NCBI RefSeq assembly: GCF_021401125.1
Contig: NZ_JACBFQ010000001.1
Location: 992,001 to 1,056,000, forward strand
Direction of reading: 5' to 3'
Source of the DNA: Xanthobacter sp. NM-59
GTDB lineage: Bacteria > Pseudomonadota > Alphaproteobacteria > Rhizobiales > Xanthobacteraceae
DNA: 64,000 nt
Positions 10,128-48,703 of this stretch are shown one piece after another. Within the stretch, counting starts at the first letter, position 1; the number at the start of each line of letters is the position of its first letter. The translations under genes were made by a program, and so were the position numbers. The notes beneath the pieces are model-generated. The model saw nothing but the letters and a program-made list of their open reading frames with translations. It was not told the origin of the DNA and ran no database searches.

Positions 10128-11612
10128 TCACTCGGCCGCTTGGGCCGTCGCGGCGGGCACTTCGTCGGCGAGGTCGTAGCTGGAGAGCATGCGGTTCACG
10201 AGATCGCCGGCCTTGTTCCAGTCATATGTGCGGAAGGAGTGGTTCTTCACCACGAAGCTCGCGCCGGCATAGAACATCTCATACTGCGCATGGCGCGAGG
10301 CGAACTCGGAGCCCACCGCGTCCCACGCCAGCTTGAAGAACTTCACGCGCTCGTCGGCGCTGGCGGCGGGCGACTGCTGGGTCTTGCGGATGAGGGCCGC
10401 CAGCTCCGGATTTTCGTAATCGTGCACCGAGGACGGCAGCATGATGAGGCCGCCGCCGGCCAGCTCCCGCAGGGTGGCGATGAGCTTGCCATAAAGCTGC
10501 TGCGCCATGGTCTGCGCGGCATAAAGGGTGTGCCGGTCGGGGATGAAATAGGGGCCATAGGTGGTGCCCTTGGCCTCCATGGCCGCCACGAAGGCGTCCA
10601 CCATGCCCACCTCGGCGGCGAGCTGGCCCAGGGTCTCGCGCACCTGAGGGAAGTTGATGATGCCATTCACCTCGGCGATGCGCCGGGCAAGGCCCGCCAG
10701 GAAGCGCACCTTCACCGAAAGGCGGATCTGCGCCTGGTAGTTCTGGTAGACATGCGCCGGGGTGGCGTGGAACTGCTTGCCCACCATGGCGATGTCATCG
10801 ACGATGAAGATCCGGTCCCACGGCACCTTCACGTCGTCGAAGTACAGCACCGCGTCGTTCTCGTCGAAGCGGCTGGCCAGGGGATTGTCGAAGACCGACG
10901 GCGCGGCCGCCTCATAGGACTTGCGCGAGAGCACCTTCAGGCCCTTCGCATTCATGGGAATGGCGAAGGAGAGGGCATATTTCTCGTCGCCCGGCTGCAG
11001 CGGCTGGATGCAGGTGACGAACACCTCGTTCGCCATAATGCCGCCGGTGGCCAGCATCTTGGCCCCGCGCACGGTAATGCCTTCCGCATCGCGGTCCACG
11101 ATGGCCGCGGACAGGAACGGATCGGCCTGCTCGGCCGCGCCCTTGGAGCGGTCGGCCTGGGGATTGATGATGACGTAGGTGAGGTAGAGGTCGTTGTCGC
11201 GGGCGTAGCGGTAATAGTCCGCCAGCGCATTGGCGCGGGCCTTGTCATAGGCCTCGAACTGGTCGAGCCCCATATACATGCCGGCGATGCAGGAGGCGAC
11301 GTGGTCCGGCGCGCGGCCGAGGAAGCCGCCATGCAGCTCGGTCCAGGCTTCCAGGCCCTTGCGGCGGGTCACCAGGTCCTCATAGCTGTGGGGCAGCTGC
11401 CAGATGCGGTTGGCGCGGGTGCCGGTCTCGGTGGCGAAGGTCATCAGCTCCGCGTTTTCCGGGGCGCTGTGAAAGTCGAACATCTTGGCGACCGAGGCCA
11501 CCGCCCGCTCATAGCCGGGGTGGGTGGTCACGTCCTTCACCAGCTTGCCGTCGAGGAAGACCTCGCGGCCGTCCTGAAGGCTGGCGGTGTGCTGGGCTCC
11601 GTTCTTGATCAT
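10128..11612 (-). CDS. HpaB-like FADH2-dependent monooxygenase, oxygenase component
   Basis: A 494-residue member of the 4-hydroxyphenylacetate 3-monooxygenase (HpaB)/pyrrole-2-carboxylate monooxygenase family. Typical stretches are THPGYERAVASVAKMFD near the N terminus, ITVRGAKMLATGG in the middle and FDDVKVPWDRIF. It uses FADH2 supplied by the flavin reductase encoded immediately upstream (33-bp gap) to hydroxylate an aromatic or heteroaromatic substrate with O2. Co-transcription with an amidase and control linked to an ABC importer argue for a nitrogen-containing aromatic rather than 4-hydroxyphenylacetate itself; no ring-cleavage (hpa) genes are present. That substrate idea is inference. 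Confidence 0.87.
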   Translation of the reverse strand: MIKNGAQHTASLQDGREVFLDGKLVKDVTTHPGYERAVASVAKMFDFHSAPENAELMTFATETGTRANRIWQLPHSYEDLVTRRKGLEAWTELHGGFLGRAPDHVASCIAGMYMGLDQFEAYDKARANALADYYRYARDNDLYLTYVIINPQADRSKGAAEQADPFLSAAIVDRDAEGITVRGAKMLATGGIMANEVFVTCIQPLQPGDEKYALSFAIPMNAKGLKVLSRKSYEAAAPSVFDNPLASRFDENDAVLYFDDVKVPWDRIFIVDDIAMVGKQFHATPAHVYQNYQAQIRLSVKVRFLAGLARRIAEVNGIINFPQVRETLGQLAAEVGMVDAFVAAMEAKGTTYGPYFIPDRHTLYAAQTMAQQLYGKLIATLRELAGGGLIMLPSSVHDYENPELAALIRKTQQSPAASADERVKFFKLAWDAVGSEFASRHAQYEMFYAGASFVVKNHSFRTYDWNKAGDLVNRMLSSYDLADEVPAATAQAAE

Positions 11613-18365: not shown

Positions 18366-18746
18366 TCAATCATACTTCACGTAGGCGAAGCGCAGATCGT
18401 GGGCGGGCGTGCCTTCCAGCGGCGTGTCCTCGCCCAAGCCGGGCTGCCACTGGACCACCTCTTCGATCTTCTGCGCCAGGGCGAAGTCGCGCACCGTGAT
18501 GCCCTTGGCGTCGTGGGACATCAGGCGCACCTCGACCCACGCGTAAGAGGCGGTGAGGTCCGGGTGGTGCCACGCCGCTTCCGCAAGGTGACCCACCGCG
18601 TTGATCACCATCAAGGTGCCCTTCCAGCTGTTGGTGCGGTAGGTGCGGCGGATCCAGCCGTCCTCATAGCGCCAGTGGGGAAGGTCCCCCCTCAGCCGCT
18701 CCTCGATCTCGAGCGGCGTGAAGGTCTTCTTGCGATCGATGCTCAT
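18366..18746 (-). CDS. pterin-4a-carbinolamine dehydratase-like protein
   Basis: A 126-residue protein with the PCD/DCoH active-site segment AAWHHPDL (His-His-Pro) followed by YAWVEVRLMSHDAKGIT. It is slightly longer than classical PCD, with an extra C-terminal tail of ~25 residues. PCD enzymes dehydrate 4a-hydroxytetrahydropterins. Since neither an aromatic amino acid hydroxylase nor its cofactor genes are nearby and folD and the methanopterin genes are, a role in pterin or C1-carrier metabolism is plausible (inference). Confidence 0.85.
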   Translation of the reverse strand: MSIDRKKTFTPLEIEERLRGDLPHWRYEDGWIRRTYRTNSWKGTLMVINAVGHLAEAAWHHPDLTASYAWVEVRLMSHDAKGITVRDFALAQKIEEVVQWQPGLGEDTPLEGTPAHDLRFAYVKYD

Positions 18747-36870: not shown

Positions 36871-36912
36871 TCACGCCGACATCCGGTCGCGCCGCGATTT
36901 GATCGCGCGCAA

Positions 36913-39556: not shown

Positions 39557-39918
39557 GGGAAACGTCGTGCCCCACGCGGCGCGAAAGCGCGGTGTGCCGT
39601 GCAGGCCCGCCTGCAATCCAGGGCGGCAGCGGCGCCCAGCTGGAACGCGTTAAATCATTGGCGCGGCAAAACACTTTCCACAACCTGTGGCCTTCGAATT
39701 TTTCTAACTCGTCACAGACTGTGAAATATTTTACGGTTGCGACACGTCAATGCGGCGCAAAATTCCCTCGCTAGTTTTTCGGCATAGGTACGCCACGGCA
39801 GGATTGATCGGAACATAGAGAGGCGCGCGGGACCGGCACCTTGGGGGGGCCGGAACCATTTCCCCAGGCGCCAGCCTCTTCCGGCCCATCGCTGCCGTTC
39901 GCACCCGGAGGCGATGTC
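39557..39918. other. 362-bp promoter region of the pentaheme cytochrome gene
   Basis: No gene is seen. The central 39650-39780 portion is AT-rich for this genome and carries the two palindromes listed separately. The ribosome site CGGAGG lies just before the ATG at 39919. Confidence 0.5.
39678..39724. promoter_or_regulatory. two related palindromes upstream of the pentaheme cytochrome gene
   Basis: CCACAACCTGTGG (39678-39690) and TCACAGACTGTGA (39712-39724) share a C-A-C-A...T-G-T-G layout, and their centres are 34 bp apart, about three helical turns. They could be a pair of operators. The regulator is unknown. Confidence 0.45.
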
Positions 39919-42009
39919 ATGGATAACGACGTATCAGGAAAACGCAGATCGAAATGGAGGATCGCGGGCGCGGTGGTGGCTGCGGCAGCGGTGGTTGGGG
40001 CCGGCGTCTTCTGGTGGATCGTCACTCCCCCGCCTGTCGAGAACACGGGCCGCACGCTGCCCAAGACCGCTGATGCGGACCTGATCGCACGTGGCAAGTA
40101 TGTCGCCGAAATGGGCGATTGCGTGGCCTGCCACACCGCCCCGGGCGGGCACCCCATGGCCGGCGGCCTGCCGCTGGAAACGCCCTTCGGCGTCCTCTAT
40201 TCCACGAACATCACGCCGGATCCGAAAAACGGCATCGGCAAGTACACGTTCGGCGAATTCGACCGCGTGATGCGCAAGGGCGTGACGGCGGACGGGGTGC
40301 ACCTGTACCCGGCCATGCCATATCCGTCCTACGCGAAGGTTTCGCCCGACGACATGTACGCCCTTTACGCGTACCTGATGCAGGGCGTTCAGCCCGTTTC
40401 CGAGCCCAACAAGGCGATCGGCATCGGCTTCCCCTTCAACCAGCGCTGGGGCCTCGCCTTCTGGAACTTCGCCTTCCTGAACAGCAAGCCCTTCGAGCCG
40501 GATCCGAGCAAGGACGCGGTGTGGAATCGTGGCGCCTATCTGGTCGAGAGCCTCGGCCACTGCGGCGCCTGCCACACGCCGCGCGGCATCGGCTTCCAGG
40601 AAGTGGCGATGTCCAACCGCGGCGCGAACGGCGACAAGTTCGTCTCCGGCGCCAAGGTCGAGGAATGGAACGCCATCAACCTTCGTGACCTGTGGACCGT
40701 GCCCGACACGGTGGAGCTGCTGAAGACCGGCCAGAACCGCTTCGCGACCGTCTCCGGCTCCATGACGGAGGTCATCCACAACTCCACCCAGCACTTCACC
40801 GACGATGACCTCGTGGCCATCGCCACCTATCTGAAGTCGCTGCCGACCCCCAATCCCCATGAAGTCACTCCGCTGCCGAAGAACGACACGGTGCCGGAAG
40901 CGATGTTCACCACCCGGGGCGGGCTTGCCTACGCGCAGTTCTGCACGGACTGCCACCGCCTGAACGGCGCGGGCGTGCCCAAGGTGTTCCCGCCGCTCGC
41001 GGGCAACCCCACCGTCAATTCCGATGACCCGGCGACGCTGATCCACATCACCCTTACCGGGTGGAAGACGGCGGAGACCAACGCCTATCCCCGTGTCTTC
41101 ACCATGCCGGGCTTTGCCCGCCTGGATGACCAGGAAGTGGCCGAGATCCTCACCTTCATCCGCAGCAACTGGGGCAACAAGGCCTCTGCGGTGAGCGCGG
41201 ATCAGGTGAAGAAGGCGCGCGCCCTGCTCGACCCCAAGGTCGACATGTCCAAGTTCGAGACGCCGCGCCTCGCCAACATGCTGAATGAGTCCAATGCAAA
41301 GCAGCTCGTGTGGGGCATGCGCCTCAACACCGAGACCCACACCCTGCTGCCGAACAATGTGGGCGACGTGCTGAACTGCACCAGCTGCCACCTGAATGCC
41401 GGCACGGTGGCGGATGGCTCGCCTTATGTGGGCGTGTCGGCCTTCTTCCCGAGCTATCAGCCTCGGGCGGGCCGCGTCATCACCCTGGAGGACCGCATCA
41501 ACGGCTGCTTCCAGCGCTCCATGAACGGCAAGCCGCTCGCCAATGACGGCGACGACATGAAGGCCATGGTCGCCTACTTCAACTGGATGAAGGGCGCCAC
41601 GAAGCCTGAGGACAAGGTTGAAGGTCGCGGCGTCGGCAAGATCGACCGCAACATCAAGCCCAATGTGGAGAACGGCAAGCAGGTCTACACGACCCAGTGC
41701 GCCGTGTGCCATGGCGCCGACGGCGAAGGCCTGCAGGATGCCAACGGCAACTTCATCTACCCGCCGCTGTGGGGCGACAAGTCCTTCAACATCGGCGCCG
41801 GCATGGCCCGCACCTACACCGCTGCCGCGTTCGTGAAGCGCAACATGCCCATCGGCTTCCACGAGAAGTTCCCGCTGGGACAGGGCGGCCTCTCGGACCA
41901 GGATGCGGTGGACGTGGCCGAATACTTCAGCCACATGCCGCGCCCCGACTTCCCCGGCAAGGTGAAGGACTGGCCGAACGGCAAGAGGCCTCCGGACGCC
42001 CGTTACTGA
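39919..42009 (+). CDS. membrane-anchored pentaheme c-type cytochrome: triheme AdhB-like module fused to TsdA-like diheme module
   Basis: A 696-residue protein with an N-terminal hydrophobic anchor (residues ~14-35) and five CxxCH haem sites: C68-H72, C215-H219, C342-H346, C487-H491 and C594-H598. Residues ~50-440 follow the triheme cytochrome subunit of membrane alcohol/aldehyde/gluconate dehydrogenases (AdhB type; GGLPLETPFGVLYSTNITPD, FPPLAGNPTVNSDDP). Residues ~450-690 look like the diheme thiosulfate dehydrogenase TsdA (NCTSCHLNAGT, GRVITLEDRINGCFQRSMNG, QCAVCHGADGEG). It sits in the periplasm and could oxidise thiosulfate or another donor and pass electrons through its own haem chain. 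Enzymatic activity is inference. A strong terminator follows. Start chosen at ATG 39919 with CGGAGG. Confidence 0.85.
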   Translation: MDNDVSGKRRSKWRIAGAVVAAAAVVGAGVFWWIVTPPPVENTGRTLPKTADADLIARGKYVAEMGDCVACHTAPGGHPMAGGLPLETPFGVLYSTNITPDPKNGIGKYTFGEFDRVMRKGVTADGVHLYPAMPYPSYAKVSPDDMYALYAYLMQGVQPVSEPNKAIGIGFPFNQRWGLAFWNFAFLNSKPFEPDPSKDAVWNRGAYLVESLGHCGACHTPRGIGFQEVAMSNRGANGDKFVSGAKVEEWNAINLRDLWTVPDTVELLKTGQNRFATVSGSMTEVIHNSTQHFTDDDLVAIATYLKSLPTPNPHEVTPLPKNDTVPEAMFTTRGGLAYAQFCTDCHRLNGAGVPKVFPPLAGNPTVNSDDPATLIHITLTGWKTAETNAYPRVFTMPGFARLDDQEVAEILTFIRSNWGNKASAVSADQVKKARALLDPKVDMSKFETPRLANMLNESNAKQLVWGMRLNTETHTLLPNNVGDVLNCTSCHLNAGTVADGSPYVGVSAFFPSYQPRAGRVITLEDRINGCFQRSMNGKPLANDGDDMKAMVAYFNWMKGATKPEDKVEGRGVGKIDRNIKPNVENGKQVYTTQCAVCHGADGEGLQDANGNFIYPPLWGDKSFNIGAGMARTYTAAAFVKRNMPIGFHEKFPLGQGGLSDQDAVDVAEYFSHMPRPDFPGKVKDWPNGKRPPDARY

Positions 42010-45964: not shown

Positions 45965-46963
45965 TCAGGGCGCAGGAAACACCGTCTTCCAGTCCTTCGC
46001 CATGTCCACCACGGTCCAGCCGTTGGTGGCCGCGGCGTCGAGGCCCTTGTCGAGCCGGCCGACCTTGGAGTCCCGGTCATAGGCCCATTCGCGCTTCGCA
46101 TCCGTGTGGTGCACATAGCCGCAGAACTTCGGGCCCGACTTCAGACAGGTATATTGCAGCATCTGAAGGTCACCATCGGAATTGCCGAAGGCGAAGATCG
46201 GCTGGCGGCCGATATTCATCTGGATGCCCACCGGCTTGCCGGGACCATCATCGATAAAATCGATATCGGCCAGCTTCAGCACGTCGGGATGCCCATCCTT
46301 CAGCTCGAACTTCAGCTTGCCGGTGCTGCCCACGACCTTTTCCGGAGGAATGCCATACAGGGACTGGCTGAAGACCCGCATGAAATCGACACCGCCGCCG
46401 GAGACGATGAAGGTTTCGAAGCCGTTGTCGCGCAGATAGGATAGAAGCTCCAGCATGGGCTGGTAGTCCATGCGCGAGAAGAGCCGGTCCTTCTCCGGAT
46501 TCTTGGCTGCAGCGATCCACTGCTGCACGATTTCGGCGAACTCGTCCGTGGTCATTCCAGCGTGGGTGGCGGCGACGACTTCGGCGATGGCGTGGTCGCC
46601 TCCGCTCAAGGCCTTCTCCATGTCCCCTTTCAGGATCGAGGCGAACGGCTCCTTCGTCTGCCATTCGGGGTGCTGGGGCGCCAGCGCCTTCACGCGGTCA
46701 AAGGCGAAGAAGAGTTGCACATAGACCGGCTTTTCGGCCCACAGCGTTCCGTCATTGTCGAAGACGGCAAGACGCTTTTCGACCGGCACGAAGTCCGGAC
46801 CGCCCTCTTTCGTGACACGGTTCACGAAGTCGACGATGGCCGTCTTGCTGCCGCCATCGTTCCAGGAGGGCAGCGGGTCTTCGGCGGCCATGGCGGGCAA
46901 GCCGACAAGGGCCACCGTCGCGGCCGCAGCAAGGCACCGCAGGGTCAGGCGCATGATGTTCAT
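45965..46963 (-). CDS. periplasmic HAD-superfamily hydrolase
   Basis: A 332-residue protein with a signal peptide (TLRCLAAAATVALVGLPAMA) and HAD motifs: LAVFDNDGTLW (motif I, nucleophile Asp; the usual DxDGT reads DNDGT), FIVSGGGVDF (motif II Ser), and a C-terminal AFGNSDGDLQML (motif IV). It is probably an exported phosphatase or phosphotransferase. It lies 108 bp downstream of the arylsulfatase gene, with a terminator between them, so the two may be co-regulated by read-through. Confidence 0.83.
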   Translation of the reverse strand: MNIMRLTLRCLAAAATVALVGLPAMAAEDPLPSWNDGGSKTAIVDFVNRVTKEGGPDFVPVEKRLAVFDNDGTLWAEKPVYVQLFFAFDRVKALAPQHPEWQTKEPFASILKGDMEKALSGGDHAIAEVVAATHAGMTTDEFAEIVQQWIAAAKNPEKDRLFSRMDYQPMLELLSYLRDNGFETFIVSGGGVDFMRVFSQSLYGIPPEKVVGSTGKLKFELKDGHPDVLKLADIDFIDDGPGKPVGIQMNIGRQPIFAFGNSDGDLQMLQYTCLKSGPKFCGYVHHTDAKREWAYDRDSKVGRLDKGLDAAATNGWTVVDMAKDWKTVFPAP

Positions 46964-46985
46964 CGCAAGCGGTCTCCGATAAGGC

Positions 46986-47021
46986 AAAACCCCGCCGGTG
47001 CCGTCAGGCACCGGCGGGGTT
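46986..47021 (-). terminator. terminator between arylsulfatase and HAD genes
   Basis: AACCCCGCCGGTGCC and its exact complement form a 15-bp stem with a 4-nt loop (46988-47021). On the minus strand it ends in TTTT (AAAA at 46986-46989). Confidence 0.85.
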
Positions 47022-47071
47022 GATGTCGTGGAAAGCCCGACCCCAAGTGGGAGCCGGCCTACGCGGGGGCC

Positions 47072-48703
47072 TCAGTTGCCGGTGGGCAGGCCGATGGAGA
47101 AGCCCTGTTCCTTGAGCTGACCGCGCACGTTCTCGAACATCTGGTAACGCGAGATCGTGATGGGGCCGGTATAAACCTCGCTCTGCAGCTTGCGGGGCGG
47201 ATACTGGATATAGGTCTTCATCAGATCGGCGACCGCCTTGTTGATGCTGACCAGAGCCCAGGTACGCTCCGTATAGTTGTTCATGAAGAGATCGTAGCGC
47301 TCCTGCGGGTCCTGACGCAAATCGAAGACCTGCGGCACGGTGGCCACATACTTCTCCGGCCCCTTCCAGCCCAGATTGCTGTCCACCGCCAAGCCGCCGG
47401 TGGGCTGGCCGTCGTCACCGCGCAGGTTGAACACGGCCTTCAGGTGGCCCAGACGGGCCGCACCGGGGGTCAGCTCGTTCTCGGTGAAGTAGAACCAAGC
47501 CTTGCGGGTGGGTTCACCCTTGCCGGTCCACACGGGCATCATGTCATAGCTGTCGAACATGATCGGCTTGCCGTCACGATCCTCCTTGGGCAGCTCCTTG
47601 ATGCCGGCGGCGGAGGCGAAGGTCTTCATGAGATCGAGGCCGCCGACGATGGCCGCGCTCTTGCTGTAGGGCTTCACATGGCCGGGCCAGCGCACGATGG
47701 CCGGCACGCGGCTGCCACCCTCGCGGTCGGTGCCCTTGGTGCCGCGAAACGGCGTGTAGCCGGCGTCGGGATAGACATCCTGCCAAGCGCCGTTATCCAC
47801 CGTATAGAAGACGATGGTGTTGTCCCGCAGGCCCAGCTCATCCAGCTTCTTCAAGAGGTTGCCGATGCGCGTGTCGAGCTCGACCACGGAGTCGGCATAC
47901 TTGCTCTTCGACGGAGACTTGTGGATGAACTCGGGTGCCGGCAGGTTCGGCTGGTGGTTCTTCATGAAGTTGACGTTGATGAAGAACGGCTTCTTCGACT
48001 TGGCGGCATCATCAAGGAAGCCGAGGGCGGCCTTCTCCACATATTCGTCGAGGAAGGGAATGCCCACCACGCCCTTCTCAGGCGTGTTCACATATTCGCC
48101 GTTGACCTGGAAATCCTGCTTCGGCGCCTCGCCGGCCTTGCCCGACAGCGCGCCCTTGGTGACGCGCTGGAACATGGCCCGGTCCTCGGGGCTCATGTCG
48201 GGGAACCAATTGGGGTCGCCATAGGTGTAGGCGTTGAGATGGTACAGGAAGGCGTACTTCATCTCGTCATAGCCCTGGGCGTTCGGCAGCGCATAATCCG
48301 CCTCGCCCAGATGCCACTTGCCGGTGAAATAGGTGCTGTAGCCCGCCTGCTTGAGCACGGAGGCCAGCGTCCATTCCGCGTGCGGCAGGCCGCCGCCCTG
48401 GCCCTGGAAGGCCACGGTTGTCATGCCGGAGCGGTTCGGGATGCGCCCGGTCTGCATGGCGGCGCGGCCGGGCGTGCAGCTCGGCTGGCCGTAGAAGGAG
48501 GTGAACAGCATGCCGTCATCGGCGAGCTGGTCAAGGTTCGGCGTGGGCATGCCGCGCTCTTCGCCGCCCAGATAGGCGCCGAGATCGCCGTAGCCCGTAT
48601 CATCGGAGACGATGAACAGGATGTTCGGCTTGGCCGCCTCCTGCGCGAAGGCCGGCGTCCCCATGGCCACCGCGACCGCGGTTGCAAGAAATAGTTGTTT
48701 CAT
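47072..48703 (-). CDS. exported arylsulfatase
   Basis: A 543-residue sulfatase with a signal peptide cleaved near AFAQ. Metal-binding Asp in FIVSDDTGYGD (~32-40), the formylglycine motif C76-T-P-G-R, and the KPFFINVNFMKNHQP and GTKGTDREGGSRVPAIVRWPG blocks are all present. The Cys is matured to formylglycine by an FGE enzyme not encoded nearby. It hydrolyses sulfate esters in the periplasm. The divergent AraC regulator starts 286 bp away. Confidence 0.92.
   Translation of the reverse strand: MKQLFLATAVAVAMGTPAFAQEAAKPNILFIVSDDTGYGDLGAYLGGEERGMPTPNLDQLADDGMLFTSFYGQPSCTPGRAAMQTGRIPNRSGMTTVAFQGQGGGLPHAEWTLASVLKQAGYSTYFTGKWHLGEADYALPNAQGYDEMKYAFLYHLNAYTYGDPNWFPDMSPEDRAMFQRVTKGALSGKAGEAPKQDFQVNGEYVNTPEKGVVGIPFLDEYVEKAALGFLDDAAKSKKPFFINVNFMKNHQPNLPAPEFIHKSPSKSKYADSVVELDTRIGNLLKKLDELGLRDNTIVFYTVDNGAWQDVYPDAGYTPFRGTKGTDREGGSRVPAIVRWPGHVKPYSKSAAIVGGLDLMKTFASAAGIKELPKEDRDGKPIMFDSYDMMPVWTGKGEPTRKAWFYFTENELTPGAARLGHLKAVFNLRGDDGQPTGGLAVDSNLGWKGPEKYVATVPQVFDLRQDPQERYDLFMNNYTERTWALVSINKAVADLMKTYIQYPPRKLQSEVYTGPITISRYQMFENVRGQLKEQGFSIGLPTGN

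Follow-up and report, generated by a model that had tools for sequence, protein, structure and literature searches.

Gene Organization and Domain Architecture

The window examined here, a 64,000-nucleotide stretch of the genome of Xanthobacter sp. NM-59, carries on its forward strand a gene for a c-type cytochrome with five heme motifs (positions 39919-42009). The gene is a single open frame of 696 amino acids without an internal stop, and a GGAGG sequence at 39907-39911 lies ahead of its ATG (39919). The N-terminal half resembles AdhB, the triheme cytochrome subunit of alcohol dehydrogenases, and the C-terminal half the diheme enzyme TsdA; it is therefore referred to as the AdhB-TsdA fusion. 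On the strength of this architecture, the conserved catalytic and heme-ligand residues, the wide conservation and the sulfur-linked neighbors seen in part of the loci, the product is probably a single-chain five-heme thiosulfate/tetrathionate oxidoreductase, of the TsdA type with a built-in triheme relay. The features of the locus are as follows:

39737..39750, plus strand: FixK/FNR-type box TTGC-N6-TCAA, 182 bp before the ATG
39919..42009, plus strand: AdhB-TsdA fusion gene, ATG start at 39919 and TGA stop at 42007-42009, with full-length homologs in 78 of 80 genome loci
39958..40026, plus strand: predicted N-terminal membrane anchor (residues 14-36), from hydropathy and inspection, with no obvious cleavage site; helix 9-35 in the model
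40060..41226, plus strand: AdhB-type triheme module (residues 48-436), heme motifs at 40120, 40561 and 40942; putative Met ligands M133, M282 and M396, by conservation
41248..41955, plus strand: TsdA-type diheme catalytic module (residues 444-679), heme motifs at 41377 and 41698
41464..41520, plus strand: active-site segment with R516, R526, the heme-1 ligand C530 and S534, conserved in 55 of 55
41836..41847, plus strand: heme-2 environment K640-R641-N642-M643, K in 53 of 55 fusions, N and M in 55 of 55

An earlier, sequence-only reading of this DNA had described five CxxCH sites in one frame, the first three AdhB-like and the last two TsdA-like. Both descriptions are upheld. The CxxCH DNA pattern has five matches in the 64 kb window, all in the fusion frame (40120, 40561, 40942, 41377 and 41698). 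Five matches are in themselves at chance level (mean 3.78; at least five in 35 of 100 shuffles), and it is domain homology and conservation that rule out a chance cluster of motifs. Each of the five is invariant in 55 of 55 fusions aligned. The aligned set is the window protein plus the 54 loci that remained when the 78 fused genome loci were thinned at 90% identity and the truncated locus L069 was omitted. The two halves were searched separately. Residues 48-434 match the AdhB/GdhII/FdhII triheme subunits (8gy2_B, E-value 6.3e-103, phmmer with residues 1-437 as query), and the matched proteins are triheme subunits from membrane dehydrogenases of alcohols, glucose, fructose and aldehydes. Residues 461-682 match Allochromatium vinosum TsdA (4wqc, E-value 2.5e-52, with the C-terminal 247 residues as query); the match of this half to TsdBA of Marichromatium purpuratum (5lo9) is weaker (E-value 5.2e-34). 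In Pfam, the fusion contains Cytochrom_C in four stretches together with the SoxA-TsdA_cyt-c domain PF21342 (49.5 bits, cut-off 27), which confirms by profile the TsdA homology claimed for the C-terminal half. Identity with SoxA itself was considered and rejected, as the SoxA model TIGR04484 scores 43.9 bits against a cut-off of 110.

The sequence-only reading had also proposed that the relay acts as a wire to the membrane, and this holds in part. The window protein has a predicted N-terminal hydrophobic helix, and hydropathy and inspection, with no dedicated predictor, give a similar helix in the Xanthobacter, Rhizobium and Ideonella copies and in most of those from Rhodopseudomonas. By the same means, the Zoogloea and Pseudomonas copies have a signal-peptide-like start and are secreted in appearance. 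The AdhB alignment covers fusion residues 48-436 and ends at residue 436 of 478 in 8gy2_B, so that the C-terminal tail of AdhB is absent. This tail helps to hold the AdhB subunit on the membrane, and the title of PDB entry 9jqa is in keeping with such a role. Because the tail is absent and the N-termini vary between helix and signal-peptide-like start, several relay partners can be envisaged from the sequences; the partner may be a quinone, a soluble cytochrome or an oxidase.

Two structural models were made, both heme-free and of middling confidence (predicted local distance difference test, pLDDT, 75.1 and 66.1). In the AlphaFold2 model built from the 55 fusions (pLDDT 75.1, predicted template modeling score, pTM, 0.69), residues 51-498 superimpose on AdhB 8gy2_B with a Z-score of 23.1 and a root mean square deviation (rmsd) of 4.1 over 391 residues. 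Residues 444-679 adopt the TsdA fold (4v2k, Z-score 17.2, rmsd 3.7, 222 residues), and residues 201-696 align with TsdBA 5lo9 (Z-score 18.9, rmsd 6.9, 383 residues). The AdhB hemes II and III may thus lie at the place that TsdB takes in TsdBA, which is only suggestive, as the alignments have an rmsd of 6.5-6.9 and score little above TsdA alone. As a separate observation, the third AdhB heme domain (residues 333-438, window 40915-41232) is also near the cytochrome domain of three-domain heme-copper nitrite reductases (E-value approximately 4e-16; Z-score 7.7).

Catalytic and Heme-Ligand Residues

The axial ligand needed for TsdA chemistry, to which the sequence-only reading had drawn attention, is present. 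C530 is identical in 55 of 55 fusions and is aligned to the heme-1 cysteine of TsdA (Cys96 in A. vinosum), which it would match as a ligand. R516 and R526, at -14 and -4 from C530, are likewise identical in all 55. In a mapping made in this analysis, this spacing equates them with Arg109 and Arg119 of A. vinosum TsdA, both of which have been reported as important for activity (PMC6879331). Also identical in the 55 fusions are M643, the heme-2 methionine, and M133, M282 and M396, which probably ligate the three AdhB hemes.

These residues bear on the possibility that TsdA catalysis has been lost, and that the protein is a five-heme carrier serving a dehydrogenase of alcohols, aldehydes or sugars whose gene lies elsewhere. 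The N-terminal half is indeed closest to dehydrogenase cytochrome subunits, and CccC, a TsdA relative with Met in place of the cysteine, is known as an electron donor to an oxidase (PMC5146829). However, the cysteine that CccC has replaced is invariant in the fusions, which are therefore not of the CccC kind. Both substrate arginines are retained with it, and no such dehydrogenase subunit adjoins the window copy. A pure electron carrier is disfavored by the invariant cysteine and arginines and is regarded as highly improbable.

The residues around heme 2 form a K-x-N-M segment. This is like the TsdA of C. jejuni, where the segment contains K252, N254 and M255 and the physiological role is tetrathionate reduction (PMC5146829), and unlike A. 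vinosum TsdA, which has Lys208-Met209. By alignment, M. purpuratum TsdBA likewise has Asn-Met at the heme-2 site, and that enzyme is biased to oxidation (PMC5146829). The K-x-N-M segment thus leaves the direction of the reaction unfixed.

Distribution, Split Form and Phylogeny

A scan of 84,980 species genomes yielded 465 relatives of the C-terminal half, and the locus counts given here rest on the best 80 of these. The whole fusion, with five CxxCH motifs in one frame, is present in 78 of the best 80; the other two (L074 and L098) are incomplete, L098 being cut by a contig end. The best 80 span the alpha-, beta- and gammaproteobacteria. The genera represented include Xanthobacter, Rhodopseudomonas, Rhizobium, Azospira, Zoogloea, Ideonella, Rhodoferax, Massilia, Ralstonia, Cupriavidus, Delftia, Comamonas, Pseudomonas and Methylobacter.

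Closer to the source organism, a match to the C-terminal half at an E-value of 8e-131 or better occurs in 21 of 198 genomes of the same family (its own included), in frames of 693-880 amino acids. All of the 20 other loci (L039-L058) have five CxxCH motifs in one frame. In an even draw from the class, one of 385 genomes, that of the organism itself, has a match at 1e-150 or better, a threshold at which weaker members are missed; the distribution is therefore patchy. The fusion is also found on plasmids. Eleven plasmid records cover at least 80% of the query, nine of them in one piece, and five of these nine were fetched and have five CxxCH motifs in one frame in each case. Carriers include Ideonella dechloratans, Rhizobium, Thioclava and Cupriavidus metallidurans (pMOL30), whose plasmid records annotate the gene just as “c-type cytochrome” or “cytochrome C”.

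The remaining two of the 11 plasmid records come from Paracoccus, and each aligns with the query in two pieces. In Paracoccus versutus, separate genes with an ATGA overlap encode the triheme module (446 amino acids, stop at 11261-11263) and the TsdA module (299 amino acids, start at 11260). P. aminovorans has the same pair of modules as two overlapping frames. Judged from these sequences, the split pair is independent gene-level evidence of two modules that would work together. Trees neither reject nor demonstrate a single origin of the fusion (approximately unbiased test, p-AU 0.192 for the C-terminal halves and 0.59 for the N-terminal halves). The Paracoccus C-terminal half sits on a long branch among the fusions and the N-terminal half with free AdhB. 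As the two halves are placed differently, the history in Paracoccus may have been one of fission, of replacement or of an ancestral two-gene state.

The nearest free TsdA in the tree is a protein of C. metallidurans CH34 (support 97/89). Its gene (L151, 3864-5726) lies behind a TauE/SafE gene and encodes a C-terminal tail nearly that of the fusion; by eye, frames 5′ of it resemble a sulfide:quinone reductase and a persulfide dioxygenase of the metallo-beta-lactamase fold.

The genome of Xanthobacter sp. NM-59 has the fusion as a single copy. A second match in this genome (L002, C11:481325-485605; 39% over fusion residues 7-436) is the AdhB-like triheme part of a 1209-amino acid frame, a putative molybdenum-hydroxylase-type fusion. 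In two other loci (L087, 226-3654; L113, 7178-10768), frames of 1143 and 1197 codons extend far 5′ of the likely fusion start, which is probably due to chance in G+C-rich DNA.

Gene Neighborhoods

Neighbors were counted over the 78 fused genome loci, mostly with 8-10 kb per side and in some cases cut by contig ends. An initial clustering of neighbors gave many frames taken for antisense, with seven of 10 representatives lacking a Pfam match. It was replaced by seed searches and by a gene picker using G+C by codon position, which found no genes in locus L086. At least one of the sulfur-linked neighbors sought is present in 36 of the 78 loci, and these neighbors point to thiosulfate/tetrathionate.

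A TtrS-like kinase with a PhnD-type sensor half is located within 10 kb of the fusion in 22 of 78 genome loci and in three of five fused plasmid loci. The rate expected by chance is below 1% per locus, a rough estimate based on 20 kb of a 5 Mb genome; as the 78 loci are related, the 22 kinase loci are not 22 independent events. One further locus, L140, where a short contig contains just the regulator, was left out of this count. Ten of the 22, which belong to Zoogloea, Azospira and related bacteria, have tsdB and tsdA directly downstream of the fusion; the order in Zoogloea (L093) is kinase, regulator, fusion, TsdB-like, TsdA. Three kinases scanned, all from plasmid loci, have the domain order Phosphonate-bd, HisKA, HATPase_c. 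Sensors of thiosulfate and tetrathionate have been identified by means of this order (PMC5408782), and in Vibrio parahaemolyticus TtrRS directly activates tsdBA, whose product oxidizes thiosulfate (PMC11293645). For four kinases scanned, the best NCBIfam model is NF040750 TtrS, with 308-334 bits against a cut-off of 750 (E-value 6e-97 for the match of 325 bits). Since this is far below the cut-off and the partner regulators fit FixJ best, the kinase is named no more firmly than TtrS-like.

Five loci (L070, L073, L077, L081 and L079) have YeeE and/or Sox genes nearby. In X. autotrophicus AM5 (L070), yeeE is 150 bp from the fusion and is followed by arsR, a soxV-like gene, soxA, soxY, soxB and soxC. 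In DSM 432 (L073, L152), the fusion is followed by the same yeeE-sox cluster, with genes for an L,D-transpeptidase, DsbD and a two-component pair in between. DsbD and such a pair are likewise neighbors of the split genes in each of the two Paracoccus records, and the context common to the Xanthobacter fusion and the Paracoccus split genes (L073, 12417-16328; L038, 12233-16156) suggests an old periplasmic thiol/sulfur gene neighborhood.

Other neighbors raise the possibility of another sulfur substrate, such as a thiol, polysulfide, sulfite or organic thiosulfonate, turned over at the same His/Cys heme. In six of eight Pseudomonas loci, an ArsR-rhodanese regulator precedes the fusion by approximately 200 bp (the 50% match lying 7.3 kb from L071 was not counted), and three Delftia copies lie beside a TauE/SafE exporter gene. 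Nonetheless, both arginines important for thiosulfate turnover by TsdA are retained, and the kinase and tsdBA neighbors indicate thiosulfate/tetrathionate. A different substrate therefore has little probability.

In the window itself, nine neighbors were scanned. Those upstream are GCS2, EamA, AhpC, an AhpF-like reductase and a LysR/OxyR-like regulator; those downstream are MFS, MCP, HAD and a sulfatase. None of the nine is a dehydrogenase catalytic subunit of the type that works with AdhB, in agreement with what the sequence-only reading had stated. The ahpC gene is at the same place in X. agilis (L067). On the minus strand, at 45965-48703, the HAD-family hydrolase lies beside the sulfatase-family enzyme.

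Upstream Box and Possible Regulation

The box upstream of the fusion, TTGC-N6-TCAA, fits the FixK2 consensus TTG(A/C)-N6-(T/G)CAA (PMC9104804). It lies in an 18-bp block that is exact in the upstream regions of X. agilis and X. autotrophicus AM3. In the Xanthobacter group, 10 of 10 upstream regions have a box of this type, 119-182 bp ahead of the start and despite different neighbors, although the ten loci are related and not independent. The set comprises the window, L067, L068, L070-L073, L076, L077 and L081, where L072 is a Rhizobiales metagenome-assembled genome; L069, with one base upstream, was dropped. As start codons were chosen by script, the distances are approximate. Outside the group, the box occurs in 11 of 76 upstream regions. 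The background is 1.6% of shuffled upstream regions, or 0.023 per 300 bases over whole loci.

Across the window, the pattern has seven matches against 2.9 expected, so that a single match is not above chance and the evidence for the box is its conservation. Further boxes of this type are found at 18601-18614 (TTGATCACCATCAA) and at 36899-36912, the latter within the 59-bp gap that separates ahpC from the ahpF-like gene. In the organism's own genome, one box of the same type precedes the ccoN match by approximately 340 bp. Such a position would be anticipated in a low-oxygen regulon, but a box also occurs in 38 of 200 shuffles of this locus. Taken from the sequences, the box common to the Xanthobacter copies hints at low-oxygen control.

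Proposed Function and Direction

For the fusion as a probable thiosulfate/tetrathionate oxidoreductase, we infer an activity, an electron path, a membrane anchor and a mode of regulation. The TsdA module would perform the chemistry, with the heme-1 cysteine ligand forming a thiosulfonate with thiosulfate or attacking tetrathionate. Two electrons would travel via TsdA heme 2. The AdhB-type triheme module would stand in for a separate TsdB, as a covalent relay between TsdA heme 2 and the respiratory chain. For the Xanthobacter protein, the prediction is a location in the cytoplasmic membrane, via its N-terminal helix and with all hemes periplasmic; it is probably expressed at low oxygen.

A number of results weigh against this interpretation. 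No NCBIfam model reaches its own cut-off on the fusion. The sulfur neighbors sought are lacking in 42 of 78 genome loci, some of them cut by contig ends, which also lends something to the carrier role considered above, and none is found among the nine window neighbors scanned. The three partner regulators scanned match FixJ best and TtrR second. The V. parahaemolyticus ttrR box, GTGG-N4-CCAC, is absent from the 580 bases 5′ of the fusion in all 26 kinase-or-regulator loci, and equally in 78 other loci. These 104 loci include the window and some species fetched twice, and matches to the pattern over all loci fall in part on the first heme motif of the fusion. When the Rhizobium kinase was used as the query, the organism's own genome gave 34 matches, none of which starts before residue 259 of 589; by this search the genome is therefore without a PhnD-type sensor half. 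The genome also has soxB (845 bits, cut-off 550) with soxY and soxA on another contig, which counts in favor of the interpretation as a sulfur link. As a Sox system is already present, the fusion enzyme may nevertheless be redundant for thiosulfate use. Finally, no member of the family with a demonstrated activity was found.

As regards the direction in vivo, oxidation of thiosulfate to tetrathionate, with a c-type cytochrome or an oxidase taking the electrons, stands at about even chances. Tetrathionate reduction with electrons from the chain is possible though somewhat unlikely, and neither of the two is very unlikely to apply. The sox and tsdBA neighbors favor oxidation. Reduction would accord with three other features: the FixK-type box, the TtrS-like sensor and the K-x-N-M segment. 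The redox partner would also matter, and a high-potential cytochrome would favor thiosulfate oxidation. Ubiquinone has a potential of approximately +100 mV, so that a quinone partner would favor tetrathionate reduction, given the +198 mV of the tetrathionate/thiosulfate couple. The value for the couple is that of PMC6879331.

These considerations allow for a quinol:tetrathionate oxidoreductase, that is, a molybdenum-free respiratory tetrathionate reductase in which the AdhB module draws from ubiquinol, its usual role reversed, and the TsdA module reduces tetrathionate at low oxygen. Electron flow from quinol to tetrathionate would be downhill. The box in 10 of 10 Xanthobacter-group loci, the similar box before ccoN (for all that shuffles hold one too), the TtrS-like sensor in 22 of 78 loci and the segment shared with the tetrathionate-reducing C. 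jejuni TsdA are all in keeping with this. Yet the AdhB tail is absent, some copies look secreted, and oxidative systems (sox, tsdBA) are among the neighbors. M. purpuratum TsdBA favors oxidation with Asn-Met, low-oxygen oxidation would fit FixK-type regulation equally well, and just 11 of 76 upstream regions outside the Xanthobacter group have the box. An enzyme of this kind is unlikely. Quite unlikely, too, is its extension to the family as a whole: one-chain, five-heme, molybdenum-free respiratory enzymes that would connect the quinone pool directly to tetrathionate through an AdhB module running backwards, and would be induced by low oxygen in Xanthobacter and, in Ideonella, Rhizobium, Thioclava and Zoogloea, by a TtrS-like sensor of tetrathionate/thiosulfate.

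Significance and Comparison with Known Systems

As the gene is labeled just as a cytochrome, thiosulfate/tetrathionate chemistry has probably been missed in the plasmid records and in other carrier genera. If the triheme module links TsdA to quinone, the fusion would be a further route of tetrathionate respiration besides the Ttr molybdoenzyme and the stand-alone periplasmic TsdA. What sets the direction of TsdA has been called unclear at the molecular level (PMC6879331), and the fused relay offers a system for testing it.

TsdA, AdhB and a TsdB-TsdA fusion are each already known. The AdhB-TsdA five-heme fusion, its breadth and its link with TtrS-like and sox genes were not found described in the literature searched, which was available in part and lies mostly outside subscription papers. 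The sequence-only reading had called the enzyme unusual; this does not hold, as the fusion forms a widespread unnamed family and a cytochrome-TsdA fusion has a precedent in TsdBA.

The fusion resembles the AdhB/GdhII/FdhII subunits (8gy2, 8hdd, 7w2j) in its three heme motifs, Met ligands and fold, the last over residues 51-447. It differs from them in having no adjoining partner dehydrogenase gene, and in carrying a TsdA module in place of the C-terminal tail. With SoxA it shares the SoxA/TsdA Pfam domain, whereas its score with the SoxA model is far short of the cut-off (43.9 against 110 bits). The TtrS-type sensor pair beside a TsdA-type enzyme in 22 of 78 loci recalls the TtrRS-tsdBA system of V. 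parahaemolyticus; there, however, TsdB and TsdA are separate, its ttrR box was not found in the 580 bases upstream of the fusions, and the window organism is without such a kinase by the search made. In common with TsdA (A. vinosum 4wq7 and 4v2k; C. jejuni), the fusion has the diheme fold, a His/Cys heme 1, two substrate arginines and the heme-2 Met. Unlike TsdA, its diheme unit sits behind a triheme relay, and its C-terminal tail ends in DARY, a feature shared mainly with the free TsdA-like protein of C. metallidurans CH34. A parallel in layout is M. purpuratum TsdBA (5lo9), in which a cytochrome relay also precedes TsdA in one chain. In that protein the relay is the diheme TsdB, giving four hemes in total, whereas in the fusion it is an AdhB-type triheme module, giving five.

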